The position numbers and the translations under genes are program-made. The notes below the pieces were generated by a model. That model was not told where the DNA came from, made no database searches, and saw nothing but the letters and a program-made list of their open reading frames with translations. Of a stretch of DNA of 64,000 bases, positions 6,993 through 14,114 are shown in pieces. This DNA comes from Klebsiella michiganensis (GTDB lineage: Bacteria; Pseudomonadota; Gammaproteobacteria; Enterobacterales; Enterobacteriaceae). How positions within the stretch are numbered: position 1 is the first letter of the stretch; each line of letters opens with the position of its first letter. The stretch covers positions 186,001 through 250,000 of the forward strand of contig NZ_PRDB01000002.1 in NCBI RefSeq assembly GCF_002925905.1. Direction: 5' to 3'.

Positions 6993-7505
6993 TTAATTGT
7001 ACTGCAGCGTCATGACCACAACGGCACTGACGCTTCCGGGCGTCGCACCGCCTGACACCGATTTTACCGAGGCCTGCATAGCCAGGGTTGCGGTTCTGTC
7101 AGCCGCGATATTGTGGGTGATGCTGGAACCCGTTCCCTTTAGCGCGCCGCTGCCCGCTTCACTCATCGCTACCGCCACGTTGGTTGCCGTACCGCTATTC
7201 AGATAATAGTCAGGACCGGCAAGCGGATCGGGAGTGCCGGTGAAGGAGGCCGTTACGCTGCGCGTTCCCGCCGGACAGTTGGTAAACAGCAAATTAAAGG
7301 CCACAGGGTCGGAGGATGACCCGGGCGTGGCCATGTTGGTTGCCTGAATATCGCCCAGATTGACATCGAGGTTGCTGTTTCCCCCATTGAATATACAGGG
7401 CGAGGCGACAATATTTCCCGTCACCCCCATCGTTACGCTGTCGGCAGAAAAAACGTTCCAGCACAGCAACGTCAGAATAAGCAATTTTTTATGGCGTATT
7501 TTCAT
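6993..7505 (-). CDS. Fimbrial minor subunit (FimA/PapA superfamily)
   Basis: 170 aa secreted pilin-domain protein. A signal peptide (about 1-20) precedes a mature domain opening VTMGVTGNIVASPCIF. Cys in SPC and in FTNCPAG form the usual pilin disulfide, and the C-terminus ends VMTLQYN with the penultimate aromatic that pairs with the chaperone. Last gene of the operon, 11 nt after the adhesin stop. The place after the adhesin suggests a minor or adaptor subunit; the exact role is not readable from sequence. Confidence 0.8.
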   Translation of the reverse strand: MKIRHKKLLILTLLCWNVFSADSVTMGVTGNIVASPCIFNGGNSNLDVNLGDIQATNMATPGSSSDPVAFNLLFTNCPAGTRSVTASFTGTPDPLAGPDYYLNSGTATNVAVAMSEAGSGALKGTGSSITHNIAADRTATLAMQASVKSVSGGATPGSVSAVVVMTLQYN

Positions 7506-7516
7506 TTTTTCACCCG

Positions 7517-8464
7517 TTACTGGTACGTCAAATTAAGCGTGGCGGTCGCATTTGCCGAGCCGGACTCAACGGAAGTTAAGGTCTGATAATAACGGGCCGT
7601 CAGCGGCAGCGTTTCTTGCCCGCCCGATGACCGTTTTAATAACAGCGGGCTATTGATGGACAGCGGCGCGCCATTATATAAAAGCTGCACGCCGACGCCT
7701 TTTGCCGTCCCGGCGCTGCCCTGCCCCGTTAATGCCATTACGCTGGGGTTGGCGCTATCGGGATTTTGTACGCCGCTCAGCGAAACGGTGATATTGGTGC
7801 CGGCGCTGCAGCTTAACCCCAGATTTTGCGTATTCTGCGCGCCAGCGGGCGTGGTGCCTACCGTCGAGCCGAACGTTGAAGCGGGAATATCGCCAATGAT
7901 GAAGTTCAACTGAGGCGTAGTGATACTGCAGGCCAGGGCGTTGATTGTCCCATCGGTCAGCGTTGCGGTCAGGCCATCACGGTAGACGCCGTCGCTGCCC
8001 TGGAGCGTCACCACCCCGATCGTTCCCGGCGTTAATGCGCCTGATGATACCTGCCCGGTCACCACCAGCTGTATGTTACCGCCGTACCAGTCGACATAAG
8101 AGGTCTGTGCGTTATAGGAGAATGTATTACTCGGATTTTCAAAATAAGCGTTTGATGAAAAACGAATACCAATACCGCTAATATTAGTGTTGTAAACGTG
8201 ATTACCGTAGCTGCTCAGCGTCGCATTATTATATCGCATGCTGAAACCCAGCATGAGTGGGTTAGTACAGCCGGAAAGGTAAGAGCCCGTATATGTCCCG
8301 CCCCCCGAAAAAATAACGGTCCCGACCGGCGCATCACGCGGTACGGTAATCGTTCCCACGGATAGAGTGGAGATCTGCGGGGTAATGGTGGTGCAGGTTC
8401 CGGCACGCGCGCTATTCCATCCGGCTATCAAGCCGAGCAAAATAACAGAGTAAATCAATCTCAT
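7517..8464 (-). CDS. Fimbrial tip adhesin (FimH-like two-domain protein)
   Basis: 315 aa. Signal peptide (about 1-21), then an N-terminal lectin-like domain (about 22-170) and a C-terminal pilin domain starting near NALACSITTPQL and ending ATLNLTYQ. This two-domain layout and length are those of FimH-type adhesins, which bind a receptor at the fibre tip. The start at 8464 lies 2 nt after the usher stop codon; a TTG seven codons upstream would overlap the usher. Receptor specificity cannot be inferred. Confidence 0.8.
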   Translation of the reverse strand: MRLIYSVILLGLIAGWNSARAGTCTTITPQISTLSVGTITVPRDAPVGTVIFSGGGTYTGSYLSGCTNPLMLGFSMRYNNATLSSYGNHVYNTNISGIGIRFSSNAYFENPSNTFSYNAQTSYVDWYGGNIQLVVTGQVSSGALTPGTIGVVTLQGSDGVYRDGLTATLTDGTINALACSITTPQLNFIIGDIPASTFGSTVGTTPAGAQNTQNLGLSCSAGTNITVSLSGVQNPDSANPSVMALTGQGSAGTAKGVGVQLLYNGAPLSINSPLLLKRSSGGQETLPLTARYYQTLTSVESGSANATATLNLTYQ

Positions 8465-8466
8465 GT

Positions 8467-11004
8467 TTAACGTTCCTGGTGGCAACTGGCGCTAACTTCT
8501 GTTATTCCAGCGTAGGTTGATTGTTTCGGCAGGCTGAAATCAGCACGGCACTGTTGGCTGGACTGGCGGCCCCACGTGACGAAGATCGCCCCCTGCTCGC
8601 GCATTCCGCTTAAAAAAACCTGGCCGCGATCGCCAACGATAAAGCTGCTCTTATTATCATCCGCAAGCGTCACCACCGCCCCGAACGGCACGAAGCGGTT
8701 ATTGTCGGTTAAGGTCATCAGGACCCTGCGCCCCACTTTGGAAAGATAATCGGCGCGCACCACCGCGCCTCGCGTCGGGGTAACCGTGTCGGTGTTTATC
8801 TCCAGCTCTACATCCTCAGGCATATTTTGCGGATCGAGCGTCAGGTCGTTTTTTCGATAAACGGAAATATTGCTGACTACCGTATATCCCCGGTAGTCCG
8901 TGCGCGCACCGGGTTGGTTGCGAATATTCACGCCGTGTGCGCCGGGGGCTTTTATCAGGGCATTGGTTTCACCGAGCGGTTGGGAAAGCGTGATGCCATC
9001 GGCGTGGGCGATAACGCCCCCCTGCAGACCATAATTAAGCCGCTCGCTGTTTTTGTCGTAGCTATACCCCGCCGTCACTTCGCCGTACGTCCCTTTATAG
9101 TCACCGTTCATATTGCCGGTGTAACCCACGCCATCCGTACCGTAACCCTGCTGGACGTTCCAGTTCAGCGAGTTGTTCTCCAGCGCGACCCCGTTCATGC
9201 CGATATTATGCGTCGTTCCACCATTCTTGCTGGCGTTCATGCCATAGCTGGCCCACGTTTGCGGGAGGAATTTATCCAACGGTACGCTGACGTTAAACGC
9301 CAGCAGCTGGTCGTGGGCGCTGTTATTCGCGCTGTCGTTTGACGTCGCGCTGCCATTTTTGCTGTATGTCCAGGTCAGGCCGTAGCTGATATTGCGCCAG
9401 TAGTTGTTGTATCCGACGCTCCACGAAGCCATCGACCTGGCGGAGTTCCAGTAATCTTCCCTCGCCGCGCTGAGGGTTAGCGATCCCAGTTCGCGGCTCA
9501 GCGTCTGGCTCATCGCCAGCTCCGCGCGGTTACGCCTGCGGTCCTGCAGCGCGCTGCTGTCTCCATATGAGTCCAGAACTTCCTGCATCCCGTAATAGCC
9601 GCTGGTGGAATAGCGGTATCCCGCAATGGAAAAGTTGGTCCCGGTATCGATGAAGTTTTTGCTGTATCGCGCTCGCCAGGATTGGCCGCGCGATTTTTCC
9701 GTTTTATCCGGCGTTGACCAGGCCTGCGTGACATCCGTGGAGATAGCGCCTAACGCCCCCATATTTTTACCCACGCCGAATGCCAGCGACTGATATTTGC
9801 TTGACTCCTGCAGGCCGCCATAGAGGGTAAAGCCATGCTGCAGGCCATAAATTGCCGTTGCCTGCCCGAAAGGGGTTTTATCCACGCTGCTGTTATATGA
9901 ACGATACTGCCCGCCGGTGATGGCGTATTTGAACCGGCCTTCCCGCTGCAGTACCGGCAGCGAGGCGTAGGGCAGCGTGAAGTGCTGTTCGCTGCCATCG
10001 GCTTCCTTAATCGTCACGTCGAGATCGCCTGCCCCGCCGGTAGGATACATATCCGTGATTTCAAAGGCGCCCGGCGCAACGTAGCTTTGGTAGATCTGGT
10101 AGCCGTTCTGGCGCACCACGACCTGCGCATTGGTTCGGGCAATGCCGCGTACTACGGGCGCATAGCCCTTAAGAGAATCCGGCAGCATGTCGTCATCGGA
10201 TGCCAGCTGGCCGCCGCGAAACGGCATACTGTCGAACACGTCGGCAGGCGCAGAGCTGTCACCAACGGTAAGCTGGGCTTTCAGAGGAATAATGGCCCGC
10301 TGCGCGTAGGTATAAACGGTATCCCATTTATCCTGGCCGGAGGACTCCCGTGACCAGGTGGTATAGTTGCGAAAACGCCACGGCCCTATATTGATCCCCG
10401 GACGCAGGTTCGCATACTGGCTGTCGCTTCTGCCGCCCTGGCCCGTTTTCGCCCGAGTGTTCGCTCCGCTCAGGCTGTAATTGAGCAATGCCGCAGTAAT
10501 TCCCTCATCCCACATTTCCGGCGGTACATAGCCCCTTGCCGGCAGGTCGATCGCCGCCTGGGGAATGCTGATAACCAGCCGCTGGGCGCCAAATTGAAAA
10601 TCAGCGCTGGCTTGCGGAATAGCCTGGAGATTGGCGCAATCACTATTTTCTACCGACAGCTGGGGAAAAAGTTCGGTTTTCACTCCCCACTGTTTTAATT
10701 GTTCCACGCTCAGACAGGGCTGCAATACCTCATTACCGCCCCCGGTCTTTGCCATCGAAAAAGGAATATCCCGGGTGTCCATTAACTGGTCATCAAGAAT
10801 AATATCCACATGGTATGTTCCCGGCGCCTGAGAGCCCGATTCAAAAGCCGATAAATCCGCTTTGCCCACGCCGGGATTATCCAGCTCTACCAGAGCCGTA
10901 TTAAACGAATCACTGGCATACAGTTCCGGAGAGAAACCGCTCAACACTATGGCGATAAGCGTAGCCAGACGAGCAGGTCGCAACTTATTATTTTTTATTG
11001 TCAT
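8467..11004 (-). CDS. Outer-membrane fimbrial usher (FimD/PapC family)
   Basis: 845 aa outer-membrane usher that receives chaperone-subunit complexes and threads the fibre out. Signal peptide about 1-30, N-terminal chaperone-binding domain (FNTALVELDNPG onwards), a 24-strand barrel region with the plug domain, and C-terminal domains ending with two cysteines (QQCRADF...SASCHQ). Full length for the family, with no interruption. An AGGTAAT ribosome site precedes the ATG. Confidence 0.92.
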   Translation of the reverse strand: MTIKNNKLRPARLATLIAIVLSGFSPELYASDSFNTALVELDNPGVGKADLSAFESGSQAPGTYHVDIILDDQLMDTRDIPFSMAKTGGGNEVLQPCLSVEQLKQWGVKTELFPQLSVENSDCANLQAIPQASADFQFGAQRLVISIPQAAIDLPARGYVPPEMWDEGITAALLNYSLSGANTRAKTGQGGRSDSQYANLRPGINIGPWRFRNYTTWSRESSGQDKWDTVYTYAQRAIIPLKAQLTVGDSSAPADVFDSMPFRGGQLASDDDMLPDSLKGYAPVVRGIARTNAQVVVRQNGYQIYQSYVAPGAFEITDMYPTGGAGDLDVTIKEADGSEQHFTLPYASLPVLQREGRFKYAITGGQYRSYNSSVDKTPFGQATAIYGLQHGFTLYGGLQESSKYQSLAFGVGKNMGALGAISTDVTQAWSTPDKTEKSRGQSWRARYSKNFIDTGTNFSIAGYRYSTSGYYGMQEVLDSYGDSSALQDRRRNRAELAMSQTLSRELGSLTLSAAREDYWNSARSMASWSVGYNNYWRNISYGLTWTYSKNGSATSNDSANNSAHDQLLAFNVSVPLDKFLPQTWASYGMNASKNGGTTHNIGMNGVALENNSLNWNVQQGYGTDGVGYTGNMNGDYKGTYGEVTAGYSYDKNSERLNYGLQGGVIAHADGITLSQPLGETNALIKAPGAHGVNIRNQPGARTDYRGYTVVSNISVYRKNDLTLDPQNMPEDVELEINTDTVTPTRGAVVRADYLSKVGRRVLMTLTDNNRFVPFGAVVTLADDNKSSFIVGDRGQVFLSGMREQGAIFVTWGRQSSQQCRADFSLPKQSTYAGITEVSASCHQER

Positions 11005-11047: not shown

Positions 11048-11725
11048 TTACAAACTGGCTTGATGTGACGGACCGGGGCTGCCGTAGTCATTAATAACTT
11101 TAAATGTCAGGGCATTGCCGGAGGCCCCGTCCGGCAAGCGGAACCGGGTGGTCGAACCCGGCATGACGTAGGTCACCTGGGCAAGCATTTTTCCGCCCAC
11201 GGTAATTTCATTGAAATTAATGACGTAAGGCGTTGGGTTATTAACCTGAAGTTCATTGCCGCTTCTTTGCCAGGTGAGTTTATTTGCCTGTTCCTCCGGC
11301 GTTGAGGCGCGAAGCGTAACGGGACGATAAATCAGCTTGATGCGCGTTTTTACGGCAATTTGCAGGGAGTTCATCTGCTTTGATGCCGAGGGAATCGCTT
11401 TAATATTTATCCAGAATAAACTTTCTTTGGCCTGAGGCAGTGAACCTGTCGCGACAATTCGCTCAATATTTTTTTGTCCGCTGTCGAGGCGATACATCGG
11501 CGGCGTAATAATAAAAGGCGCTTTACCAGAACCACCTTCCTGCTCATCTATCCATGACTGAATTAAATAAGGCGTCGCATCAGGATTATTAACGCTGATT
11601 GACGCTTCTTTTTTTGCACCATCGAAAATGATCCGCGTGCCGCCAATAATTACCCCGGCAGTGGCGGTTGCCTGCACCAGCGTTAACATTGTTATCGCCA
11701 GGCCAATTGTTCTGATAAAACGCAT
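11048..11725 (-). CDS. Periplasmic fimbrial chaperone (FimC/PapD family)
   Basis: 225 aa, signal peptide about 1-23. Two immunoglobulin-like domains: residues GGTRIIFDGAKKEASISVNN begin the first, with RLDSGQKNIERIV and ESLFWINIKAIP as the F1-G1 region that donates a strand to subunits. The short F1-G1 loop places it in the FGS group that assembles rod-like fimbriae. Lies between the major subunit and the usher. Confidence 0.92.
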   Translation of the reverse strand: MRFIRTIGLAITMLTLVQATATAGVIIGGTRIIFDGAKKEASISVNNPDATPYLIQSWIDEQEGGSGKAPFIITPPMYRLDSGQKNIERIVATGSLPQAKESLFWINIKAIPSASKQMNSLQIAVKTRIKLIYRPVTLRASTPEEQANKLTWQRSGNELQVNNPTPYVINFNEITVGGKMLAQVTYVMPGSTTRFRLPDGASGNALTFKVINDYGSPGPSHQASL

Positions 11726-11782: not shown

Positions 11783-12313
11783 TTAGTTGTAAACCACTGA
11801 GAAGTTCGCGACCGAGTTAGCTGGGCCGGCAACCACCGTCGCAGTGGTCGACACATACTGAGCATAGAAATTCAGCGTATTATCAGCGGTGCTGGTGAGC
11901 GGGTAGGAGTAACCGTTGCTGCCGTGCAGAGGCAGATCGGCTTTATCCGCCGTCATCAGATTAATCGCGACACCGGAGGCTGCGCCAGCGACCGACGAGT
12001 CAATAGCCAGCAGGCTGGAGTTACTTAAATCAGGCGTGCCATCAAAGCGGACTTTGGCATTGTTAACCGTCACCGGACAGTTCTTCAAAATAATATCGAA
12101 TTTCGTCGCGGCGGTTCTCGAACCGGCTACCGGAAATTCAGTTTTATAATAATCGCCCAAAACAACCACCTGGTCCTTTGACGCGACATCGATGTCGCAG
12201 GCGGCATCCAAAATATTGCCATTAAAATTAACGGTACCCGCTGCTGCGAAAGCCTGAGTCATTGATAATGCAGAACCTGCTGCAAGTATCGCAATAACAA
12301 TTTTCTTTTTCAT
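11783..12313 (-). CDS. Major fimbrial subunit (FimA-like pilin)
   Basis: 176 aa. Signal peptide about 1-23 (ending AFAAAG), mature pilin opening GTVNFNGNILDAACDI with the conserved Cys pair (AACDI and LKNCPV) and closing NFSVVYN with a penultimate Tyr. First gene of the operon and therefore the likely rod subunit. The arrangement major subunit-chaperone-usher-adhesin resembles small type-1-like clusters such as kpf of Klebsiella pneumoniae, but I cannot confirm orthology. Confidence 0.85.
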   Translation of the reverse strand: MKKKIVIAILAAGSALSMTQAFAAAGTVNFNGNILDAACDIDVASKDQVVVLGDYYKTEFPVAGSRTAATKFDIILKNCPVTVNNAKVRFDGTPDLSNSSLLAIDSSVAGAASGVAINLMTADKADLPLHGSNGYSYPLTSTADNTLNFYAQYVSTTATVVAGPANSVANFSVVYN

Positions 12314-12347
12314 AACGACACATCCTGTTTTACTTTATTTACATTCA

Positions 12348-12376
12348 GGCAAAATATTTAATAAACGCATTTTGCC
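12348..12376. promoter_or_regulatory. Inverted repeat upstream of the fimbrial operon
   Basis: GGCAAAAT (12348-12355) and ATTTTGCC (12369-12376) are perfect inverted repeats separated by 13 nt, 35-63 bp before the major-subunit ATG. This could be an operator or, if transcribed, a leader stem-loop. No function known. Confidence 0.5.
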
Positions 12377-12402
12377 ATTGCTTTAATATATTGCCGGGAA
12401 AC

Positions 12403-12423
12403 AGTGGTATATATCACACCACT
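12403..12423. promoter_or_regulatory. Dyad with CRP-like half-site
   Basis: AGTGGT (12403-12408) and ACCACT (12418-12423) flank 9 AT-rich bases. The interior reads GTGG-TATATA-TCACA, which keeps one good CRP half-site (TCACA) and three of five bases of the other. It sits roughly 100 bp before the major-subunit ATG. CRP binding is a guess. Confidence 0.35.
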
Positions 12424-12506
12424 ATTTCATTTTATTAAAACCGGATTACCCCTGCCGACGTGACAAAATTTATACAACATTTTTTCAGCGCACAATCTAT
12501 TTCGCG

Positions 12507-12520
12507 GTCTAAATGTAGAC
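12507..12520. promoter_or_regulatory. Operator-like palindrome, copy 1
   Basis: GTCTA-aatg-TAGAC, a perfect 5-bp inverted repeat with a 4-bp spacer. First of three related sites in the divergent fimbriae/regulator intergenic region. Confidence 0.6.
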
Positions 12521-12579
12521 TCGAAATTAACAAAAATAAAACATTCAAATTAAGAAATTACTTAATCACACTGACCCCG

Positions 12580-12593
12580 GTCTACTTTTGGAC
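12580..12593. promoter_or_regulatory. Operator-like palindrome, copy 2
   Basis: GTCTA-cttt-TGGAC, with one mismatch from the perfect repeat, centred 73 bp from copy 1. The flanks (CC on the left, GG on the right) extend the symmetry. Confidence 0.6.
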
Positions 12594-12644
12594 TGGCGAG
12601 ACAAAATCAATAAAATCAATTAATTATAACCATAATCCACCCGA

Positions 12645-12658
12645 GTCTATTATTAGAC
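12645..12658. promoter_or_regulatory. Operator-like palindrome, copy 3
   Basis: GTCTA-ttat-TAGAC, a perfect repeat centred 65 bp from copy 2 and about 90 bp before the first regulator ATG. Flanks CGA and CCG extend the symmetry to about 8 bp per arm with one mismatch. Confidence 0.6.
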
Positions 12659-12746
12659 CCGGCGCCAATATTCCCTGAGATGCTGTTTTTTAAGATAATT
12701 CCCAACATCGATCAAAAAACGATCGCATAAGTTAGTGAGGTATCTT

Positions 12747-13406
12747 ATGAACACGAGAATTATTCCTGAATTCGGCAACGAGCCAGCGGAAGTACTTGAG
12801 ATAAAACCCTTTAAGCACATTGAGAAATTAATTGATAATGTCCTGCCGTACGCCGAGAGACGAATAGTCTCGAAAGGGGAGATCGTCCATTATTACGATA
12901 ATAACGTTCGTCAGTGTTTTTTACTTATCCAGGGCAGCGTCGCGCTGCATCGTCGCGGAGATGGGATTGTTTTAAATTCTGAGTCATCGCCATTTCTTCT
13001 CGGCGTGTGTAGCCAGTTTTCCTCTGAACGACTTTACGTCAGGGTACTGGAAACATCGGAAATTGCGGCCGTTTCGCTGGAAACGTTTAATCGCGTAGTG
13101 GCGCAACAGAACTTATGGGAGCATTTTTCAAAGCTGCTGATCTATACCGCATCGCGGGTTTATGAGCACTGCGCGCAAATATCGCAAATGTCAGCCTATG
13201 ACATCATTCGTTTTCAACTTGTTGAATTAATGCAAGAGCCCGAAGCTATCCGGCAAAGTATCACCGCGGCGGCCTATATCAAAAGTCGAACCTATCTTTC
13301 CCGCAGCGGCGTTATGCGCATCCTCGCAGAGCTACGAACGGGTAAATACATTACCATGGAGCGCGGAGTGCTGATTGACATCCACCACCTGCCGCGAAAG
13401 TATTGA
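12747..13406 (+). CDS. Winged-helix regulator, Crp-like fold, IprA-like (first of a tandem pair)
   Basis: 219 aa. The N-terminal half (about 20-130) reads like a cyclic-nucleotide-binding-type beta-roll without its phosphate-binding signature; the C-terminal 55 residues form a winged helix with YLSRSGVMRILAELRTG. That tail resembles IprA/YaiV-type regulators of enterobacteria. The ATG at 12747 is preceded by GTGAGG; an in-frame GTG at 12735 is part of that ribosome site. Divergent from the fimbrial operon with three palindromes in between, so a role in fimbrial control is likely but inferred. Confidence 0.75.
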   Translation: MNTRIIPEFGNEPAEVLEIKPFKHIEKLIDNVLPYAERRIVSKGEIVHYYDNNVRQCFLLIQGSVALHRRGDGIVLNSESSPFLLGVCSQFSSERLYVRVLETSEIAAVSLETFNRVVAQQNLWEHFSKLLIYTASRVYEHCAQISQMSAYDIIRFQLVELMQEPEAIRQSITAAAYIKSRTYLSRSGVMRILAELRTGKYITMERGVLIDIHHLPRKY

Positions 13407-13484
13407 TTGTTCATGTATCTTCGGAGTGGCAAGAGATACGCGCGAGGTTATAATAAGTCCGATCTCCTTCAGGATTTTCTGACT

Positions 13485-14114
13485 ATGCCATCTGCAAATC
13501 AACCCTTCCGCGGCTCCCCTTACGCACAGGAATTTATTTCTCATTTGCAGCCCTACTGCACGACGTACCGAACGGGCCGCGGCGAGCAGTTTGATCTTCA
13601 GGTTAACGGTCAGGGGATGTGTTATCTCCTTCTGGAGGGGACGATAGCGATATACCGAAGAAGTGACAATATGATGCTTTCCACGGCGCTCAGTCCCGCC
13701 CTTTTCGGCCTCGCTAACCTGACGGACATTTACTTTGATGACTATTTTAAAACCGTCACGCCGTGCCAGATTGGCGTACTCACAACCCGTCGCGTCGAGG
13801 AAATCATTAGAGAGAAGGCGCTATGGGGACTGCTCTCTAAACAGCTGATGTTTGTCTATAACCGCCTCTATCATAACGTTATGCCCCAGGGCACGCCAAC
13901 GGCGTACGAGATGATTCGCCAGCAGCTGATCAAGCTCATGGAGGAAGAGGAGGGTTATCGCTACAGCGTGACGGCTGAAAGATATATCAGAGAGAAAACC
14001 CGGCTTTCCCGCAGCGGCGTAATGCGCATTCTGGCGGCGCTGAAAACCGGTGGTTTTATCGAAATGGAAGAGGGGAAACTCATAAAAATCAACAAACTTC
14101 CTGCTAAGTACTGA
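13485..14114 (+). CDS. Winged-helix regulator, paralogue of the preceding gene
   Basis: 209 aa from the ATG at 13485 (AGGA 10 nt upstream); the frame is open back to a TTG at 13407 and an ATG at 13413, so a longer form cannot be excluded. Same layout as the upstream gene: a beta-roll-like domain (LLLEGTIAIYRRSDN matches LLIQGSVALHRRGDG), then a winged helix with RLSRSGVMRILAALKTG, ending LPAKY against LPRKY. The two probably arose by tandem duplication and may hetero-oligomerise. Ligand unknown. Confidence 0.75.
   Translation: MPSANQPFRGSPYAQEFISHLQPYCTTYRTGRGEQFDLQVNGQGMCYLLLEGTIAIYRRSDNMMLSTALSPALFGLANLTDIYFDDYFKTVTPCQIGVLTTRRVEEIIREKALWGLLSKQLMFVYNRLYHNVMPQGTPTAYEMIRQQLIKLMEEEEGYRYSVTAERYIREKTRLSRSGVMRILAALKTGGFIEMEEGKLIKINKLPAKY

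Follow-up and report, generated by a model that had tools for sequence, protein, structure and literature searches.

Introduction

Activators of the CRP/FNR superfamily, among them CRP, FNR and CprK, combine a beta-roll sensor domain with a C-terminal winged helix, whose recognition helix reads a dyad operator. CRP reads its half-site through residues R180, E181 and R185, and FNR sites have the layout TTGAT-N4-ATCAA, in which two 5-base arms flank a 4-base spacer. Here we describe a locus of Klebsiella michiganensis that resembles these systems in fold, in the position of the recognition helix and in its putative dyad operators. It lies in a 64,000-nucleotide window (contig NZ_PRDB01000002.1, positions 186,001 to 250,000; coordinates below count from the first letter of this stretch), where three copies of the palindrome GTCTA-N4-TAGAC separate a chaperone-usher fimbrial operon from a divergent tandem pair of regulator genes, reg1 and reg2. 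The locus differs from CRP/FNR activators in its HTH_46 DNA-binding domain, in a cNMP domain that falls under the Pfam cut-off, in the operator letters GT[C/G]TA, in an operator centre near −54 and in encoding two regulators in tandem. Sequence comparison indicates that the palindromes are very probably the operators of the adjacent regulators.

Three described systems invite comparison. According to the accessible parts of the report on Herbaspirillum, a heterodimer of Fnr1 and Fnr3 is proposed to act on hybrid FNR sites (PMC5934665). That system likewise involves two CRP/FNR paralogues and a site with one half of each kind, but it serves global oxygen regulons, whereas the present pair appears to be local to fimbriae, to tie one helix position to one base and to hold one orientation towards each of two divergent promoters. 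KpfR of the Klebsiella kpf fimbriae is, in the available portion of its report, a helix-turn-helix regulator encoded beside a chaperone-usher operon; unlike reg1 and reg2, it is the product of a single gene, co-directional and co-transcribed with the operon, and that portion describes no operator for it (PMC7861041). The HTH_46 relative IprA/YaiV is cited in two reports as influencing fimbrial genes in Salmonella (PMC12502779, PMC6527747). In the literature searched, from which most subscription papers were outside coverage, we found no description of these operator letters or of this regulator pair.

Many of the fimbrial operons in enterobacteria are silent, with switches yet to be identified. 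Given an operator that can be read, a rule linking helix to base and constant distances to the promoters, one could predict the regulator pair behind each operon.

Results

The three palindromes lie between the start codon of the fimbrial major-subunit gene (12313, minus strand) and that of reg1 (12747, plus strand). Operator 1 (GTCTA-AATG-TAGAC, 12507..12520), on the side of the fimbrial promoter, and operator 3 (GTCTA-TTAT-TAGAC, 12645..12658), on the side of the regulator promoter, are exact copies. The middle site, operator 2 (GTCTA-CTTT-TGGAC, 12580..12593), carries one mismatch in its right half (TGGAC). A motif scan thus confirmed the original prediction, which had claimed two perfect copies and one with a single mismatch, at centre-to-centre distances of 73 and 65 bp, and no other copy in the window; indeed, no fourth match with at most one mismatch occurs in the 64,000 nucleotides. 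When two mismatches are allowed, the window holds 15 matches against 12.4 expected, and the 12 beyond the three sites all have two. This total is at chance level, and the signal is the clustering of near-perfect copies rather than their number: if matches with at most one mismatch were Poisson-distributed at their density in this genome, three would fall in one 433-bp stretch with a chance of 3e-10.

A search for related loci returned 12, of which 11 have a full-length reg1; together with the window these gave 12 aligned regions. All three sites are present in 12/12 of these intact loci. The arms fit the consensus at 356 of 360 bases and do not vary in 28 of their 30 columns. Their mean pairwise identity of 0.98 compares with 0.72 for the N4 spacers and 0.53 for the remainder of 12314-12746. 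Site spacings are 72-73 and 64-65 bp, so that those of the window are kept within 2 bp across the 12 orthologues. A 13th locus, from a further genome of the genus (G077), has three exact copies as well. The original prediction had named loss of the sites in genomes that keep the regulator pair as the outcome that would speak against it, and none of the aligned intact loci behaved in this way. The sites are absent from the locus of Enterobacter cloacae M-7 (L029), where reg1 is reduced to its C-terminal half, the region from the major subunit to the usher is gone and the minor-subunit gene abuts the reg1 remnant.

The two regulators (reg1, 12747..13406; reg2, 13485..14114; both on the plus strand) share a CRP/FNR-like fold and, at about 34% identity to each other, are paralogues that have diverged. 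The start of reg2 was chosen from its orthologues, its open frame beginning at 13407, and reg1 is 94% identical to its K. grimontii counterpart. Both proteins have the architecture of the CRP/FNR superfamily, with a beta-roll sensor domain followed by a C-terminal winged helix; the fold comparison was made against listed PDB entries, and the lack of a family among them counts as no evidence. The HTH_46 family (PF15977) is matched by reg1 at 93.7 bits and by reg2 at 84.8 bits, above the Pfam gathering score of 29.3. For the cNMP domain PF00027, reg1 scores 22.6 bits, under the cut-off of 27.5, and reg2 gives no match. Against the CRP equivalog NF008732 reg1 reaches 21.6 bits, where the curated cut-off is 266. 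Unlike IprA, reg1 and reg2 (81.3 and 77.4 bits) stand far under the curated cut-off of 359 for the equivalog NF008810; six other HTH_46 proteins score 70.8-99.9 bits there. A class with the helix SRSS[I/V]LN, which had been expected to be IprA, was excluded by the same cut-off.

The two paralogues have the same recognition helix, LSRSGVMRIL, which aligns with CRP/FNR proteins along the motif SRxxVxRIL. Its varying residue (G or S/T across the family) presumably corresponds to T182 of CRP, and we take the third base of GT[C/G]TA to lie 4.5 bp from the dyad, as do G7 of the CRP site and the G of the FNR site.

To relate helix to operator, we collected 161 distinct HTH_46-like proteins from 295 Enterobacteriaceae genomes and the genus survey, dropped five with ASRE/SSRE-type helices (other CRP-like proteins) and searched 330 bp upstream of the first genes. 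Across the family, the helix SRSG goes with GTCTA-N4-TAGAC and the helix SRS[S/T] with GTGTA-N4-TACAC. Among the 32 SRSG-M[R/K] genes, outside which stand the L029 and L063 rows (reg2 genes), 19 have an exact GTCTA-N4-TAGAC, three a GTCCA variant, one (L165) another one-mismatch match and nine none. All 13 intact reg1-type SRS[S/T] genes have an exact GTGTA-N4-TACAC upstream, and in 12 of them the helix reads S/T-[I/V]-M-K-I-L-A; a broken 14th copy (L163) has no site. The 28 genes of the SRSS[I/V]LN class have no exact site and a single one-mismatch GTGTA match. In fimbria-linked SRSG loci the one-mismatch sites are all changes of GTCTA to GTCCA (10/10), and the mismatch in operator 2 is a recurrent half-site variant, not decay. 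A tree built without the helix-turn-helix region groups the reg1-type proteins in a single fork (support 85, not starred) and places the reg2-type proteins outside it. Residue and operator agree in 29/29 reg1 rows and 24/24 reg2 rows.

Both outer operators stand about 54 bp upstream of predicted transcription starts. On the fimbrial side, 11 bp from operator 1, we predict a −35 box TTGTGC (12490..12495, minus strand), followed after 17 bp by a −10 box TAAATT (12467..12472, minus strand); an alternative −10, TATAAA, lies two bases nearer. The centre of operator 1 is then at about −53.5. On the regulator side the candidate boxes are TTCCCT (12671..12676, plus strand), a weak −35 located 12 bp from operator 3, and GATAAT (12694..12699, plus strand), a −10 located 35 bp from it, which would place the centre of operator 3 at about −54.5. 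This geometry recurs in the 38 loci that we measured, 13 of which are orthologues of the window locus. On the regulator side [G/C]ATAAT starts 33-36 bp from the operator in 36/38 loci (0.18 in shuffles), the exceptions being L154 and L159. On the opposite side TTG starts 10-12 bp from it in 38/38 (2.25 in shuffles), and TAAATT, TAGATT or GAAAAT often comes 17 bp later; the TTG count takes three hybrid loci from the wrong operator and includes two loci that face an integrase gene and two that face reg2, and excluding these seven it is 31/31. In GTGTA-type loci of normal layout a single operator fits both divergent promoters. Where the regulators stand back to back (L217, L218), there are two operators, of which one precedes the fimbrial gene and the other separates the regulators. 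In another locus (L175, G500:C43) the two regulator genes are not adjacent, and reg2 is found beyond the fimbrial genes, at the operon's far end.

When operator and −10 box were searched for as one pattern in the 295 genomes, the GTCTA type gave 6 matches, all at reg1-type genes (reversed control, 3), the GTGTA type gave 14, with 11 at reg1-type genes (control, 5), and the hybrid type described below gave 3, two of them in the genus with mixed pairs (control, 1).

The K. michiganensis genome itself (6.19 Mb) contains four exact copies of GTCTA-N4-TAGAC and 18 matches with at most one mismatch. Two exact copies are at this locus, one is inside minC and one is on contig C26, upstream of a further HTH_46 gene by 68 to 113 bp, depending on which start is taken, and in the neighbourhood of a phage-integrase-family gene and fimbrial genes. 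Three of the four are therefore directly upstream of HTH_46 regulator genes. At the 14 remaining sites with at most one mismatch, minC included, [G/C]ATAAT is absent at 33-36 bp on either side (14/14), so the regulon looks local. The genus survey, which covered 20 genomes, gave 17 exact palindromes, 9 of them immediately upstream of HTH_46 genes. An exact palindrome inside minC recurs in three genomes of the genus (L003, L057), again without promoter geometry; the minC copies are probably a coding coincidence. One further exact palindrome (G062:C50), initially considered related to the C26 locus, showed neither a regulator nor similarity to that locus and was counted as chance.

Regulator pairs generally match: 24 of 26 distinct pairs share one helix class (12 SRSG, 12 S/T). 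The remaining two rows represent three genomes of one genus (L161, L162, L166), in which reg1 is SRSG (SRSGIMAVL) and reg2 is SRSS. Here the operators are hybrids: the one nearer the fimbrial genes reads ATCCA-N4-TACAC and the one nearer the regulators GTGTA-N4-TAGA[C/T]. They are separated by 56 bp, and each is at the correct promoter distance. In both, the half that adjoins the promoter is the GTCYA-like one.

Discussion

We read the palindromes as operators because they are conserved, covary with the recognition helix and keep a fixed geometry to both promoters. The conservation and covariation seen by sequence comparison would fit a dyad operator read by a recognition helix. The proposal of the original prediction that the sites are operators for the adjacent winged-helix proteins thus gains support from their conservation and from half-sites that appear to follow the helix. 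Operators 1 and 3 would act from positions immediately upstream of the predicted −35 boxes at the two divergent promoters, operator 2 being an extra copy between them. A bound dimer would contact RNA polymerase from about −54 and may activate the fimbrial operon as well as the regulator genes themselves, whose predicted −35 box is weak. Because activation is proposed at the regulators' own promoter too, the outcome would be a local positive-feedback switch. Overall, we consider it probable that the regulators are activators; that they are repressors is unlikely, and that they are both or neither is more unlikely still.

Several observations weigh against this account. CRP/FNR activators are usually centred at −41.5 or −61.5, unlike the −54 or so predicted here. 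The nine SRSG genes that lack a site with at most one mismatch in 330 bp include four from the reg1 clade (L016, L103, L153, L160), and the one-mismatch match of L165 is of another kind than GTCCA. Contrary to the code, two SRSG genes, L165 and L168, are preceded at about 450 bp by an exact GTGTA-type palindrome, which falls beyond the span searched and lacks the promoter geometry. Three of the 14 GTGTA-type composite matches lie elsewhere than at reg1-type genes, and one of the three hybrid matches lies elsewhere, in a 0.4 Mb genome. A single switch on the reg1 tree, and two on that of reg2, are enough to produce the agreement of helix and operator, and each tree holds one independent pair on well supported branches. 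Because so few switches are needed, the residue code is a strong pattern with few independent events. Finally, KpfR, the related fimbrial regulator with genetics, is a repressor according to the available part of its report (PMC7861041).

The hybrid operators bear on how the two paralogues work together. They are the trace expected of a heterodimer with reg1 towards the polymerase and suggest such an arrangement; we infer from them which half-site belongs to which regulator. CRP/FNR heterodimers on hybrid sites have been proposed before (PMC5934665). We propose, with slightly less than even confidence, that reg1 and reg2 work as a heterodimer in which reg1 occupies the half-site nearer the promoter. 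It is a comparably plausible but equally tentative reading that homodimers of reg1 and of reg2 compete for or share the palindromes and no heterodimer forms. Most loci do have symmetric operators, reg1 occurs without an adjacent reg2 in L017, L058 and L154/L215, and the hybrid operators come from one genus and represent a single evolutionary event. Homodimers sit less easily with three species that each have two hybrid sites, the SRSG-type half on the promoter side and one SRSG and one SRSS regulator. More tentatively, widespread tandem CRP-fold pairs may run chaperone-usher fimbriae as oriented heterodimers, each partner on its own half-site and reg1 facing the polymerase, with one helix position (G or S/T) setting one base and partners and operator switching together, which would keep the fimbrial systems of one cell separate. 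If true, the oriented CRP-fold heterodimer offers a clean case for the coevolution of paralogues and their sites. Such insulation becomes testable where both operator types occur together. In L170 (G495:C17:111000-125000) two complete fimbrial systems stand side by side with operators 8.5 kb apart; the first combines a GTCTA operator with SRSG regulators, the second a GTGTA operator with SRSS/T regulators.

Repression through cooperative binding or a DNA loop, in which dimers on the three sites close both promoters, would account for spacings kept so closely in 12 orthologues, for an IHF-like core between sites 2 and 3 and, as far as the available text goes, for the precedent of KpfR as a helix-turn-helix fimbrial repressor (PMC7861041). 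We nevertheless find it improbable. A single operator is present in many related loci, and the sites are spaced differently from locus to locus (56, 65-73 and 109 bp), in several (65, 67-69) amounting to no whole number of helical turns, whereas distances from operator to promoter are nearly constant; the sites also overlap neither −35 nor −10 boxes. Cooperative looping as the core mechanism, which the original prediction had put forward, is thus not supported, although at the window locus, with its closely kept spacings, looping or cooperativity may still play a part.

Binding by a global factor (CRP, FNR, OxyR or similar) in place of reg1 and reg2 is very unlikely. FNR sites share the 5-N4-5 geometry, and GTGTA-type sites carry the CRP core GTG at an equal distance from the dyad. 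Yet four exact copies in the whole genome are unlike the genome-wide sites of a global factor, the other near-matches lack the −10 geometry and the half-site follows the helix of the local regulators. Recombination sites for fimbrial phase inversion, which the phage-integrase-family gene beside the C26 copy might recall, can be dismissed as extremely unlikely: within the window we saw no integrase gene next to the sites, most loci carry a single copy, and distance and orientation to the promoters are fixed.

Additional features of the locus

The fimbrial operon runs on the minus strand and comprises genes for the major subunit (11783..12313, Pfam Fimbrial), a periplasmic chaperone (PapD, 11048..11725), an outer membrane usher (8467..11004), an adhesin-like subunit with an MrkD-like receptor domain (7517..8485) and a minor subunit (6993..7505). 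Elsewhere in the set, another HTH_46 gene is co-directional with fimbrial genes and has no GTCTA or GTGTA site (L112, G000:C4:339000-345000); it shares the layout of kpfR.

The regulator leader contains two GATC (Dam) sites at 12709-12724, GATCAAAAAACGATC, which by eye are kept in 11/12 orthologues. A Dam methylation switch at this pair, downstream of the regulator −10 box, was considered and set aside, since the pair is not kept in the other loci looked at. The IHF-like sequence AATCAATTAATTA lies at 12614-12626, between sites 2 and 3, and its core TCA-N5-TTA is found, by eye, in 12/12 aligned orthologues.
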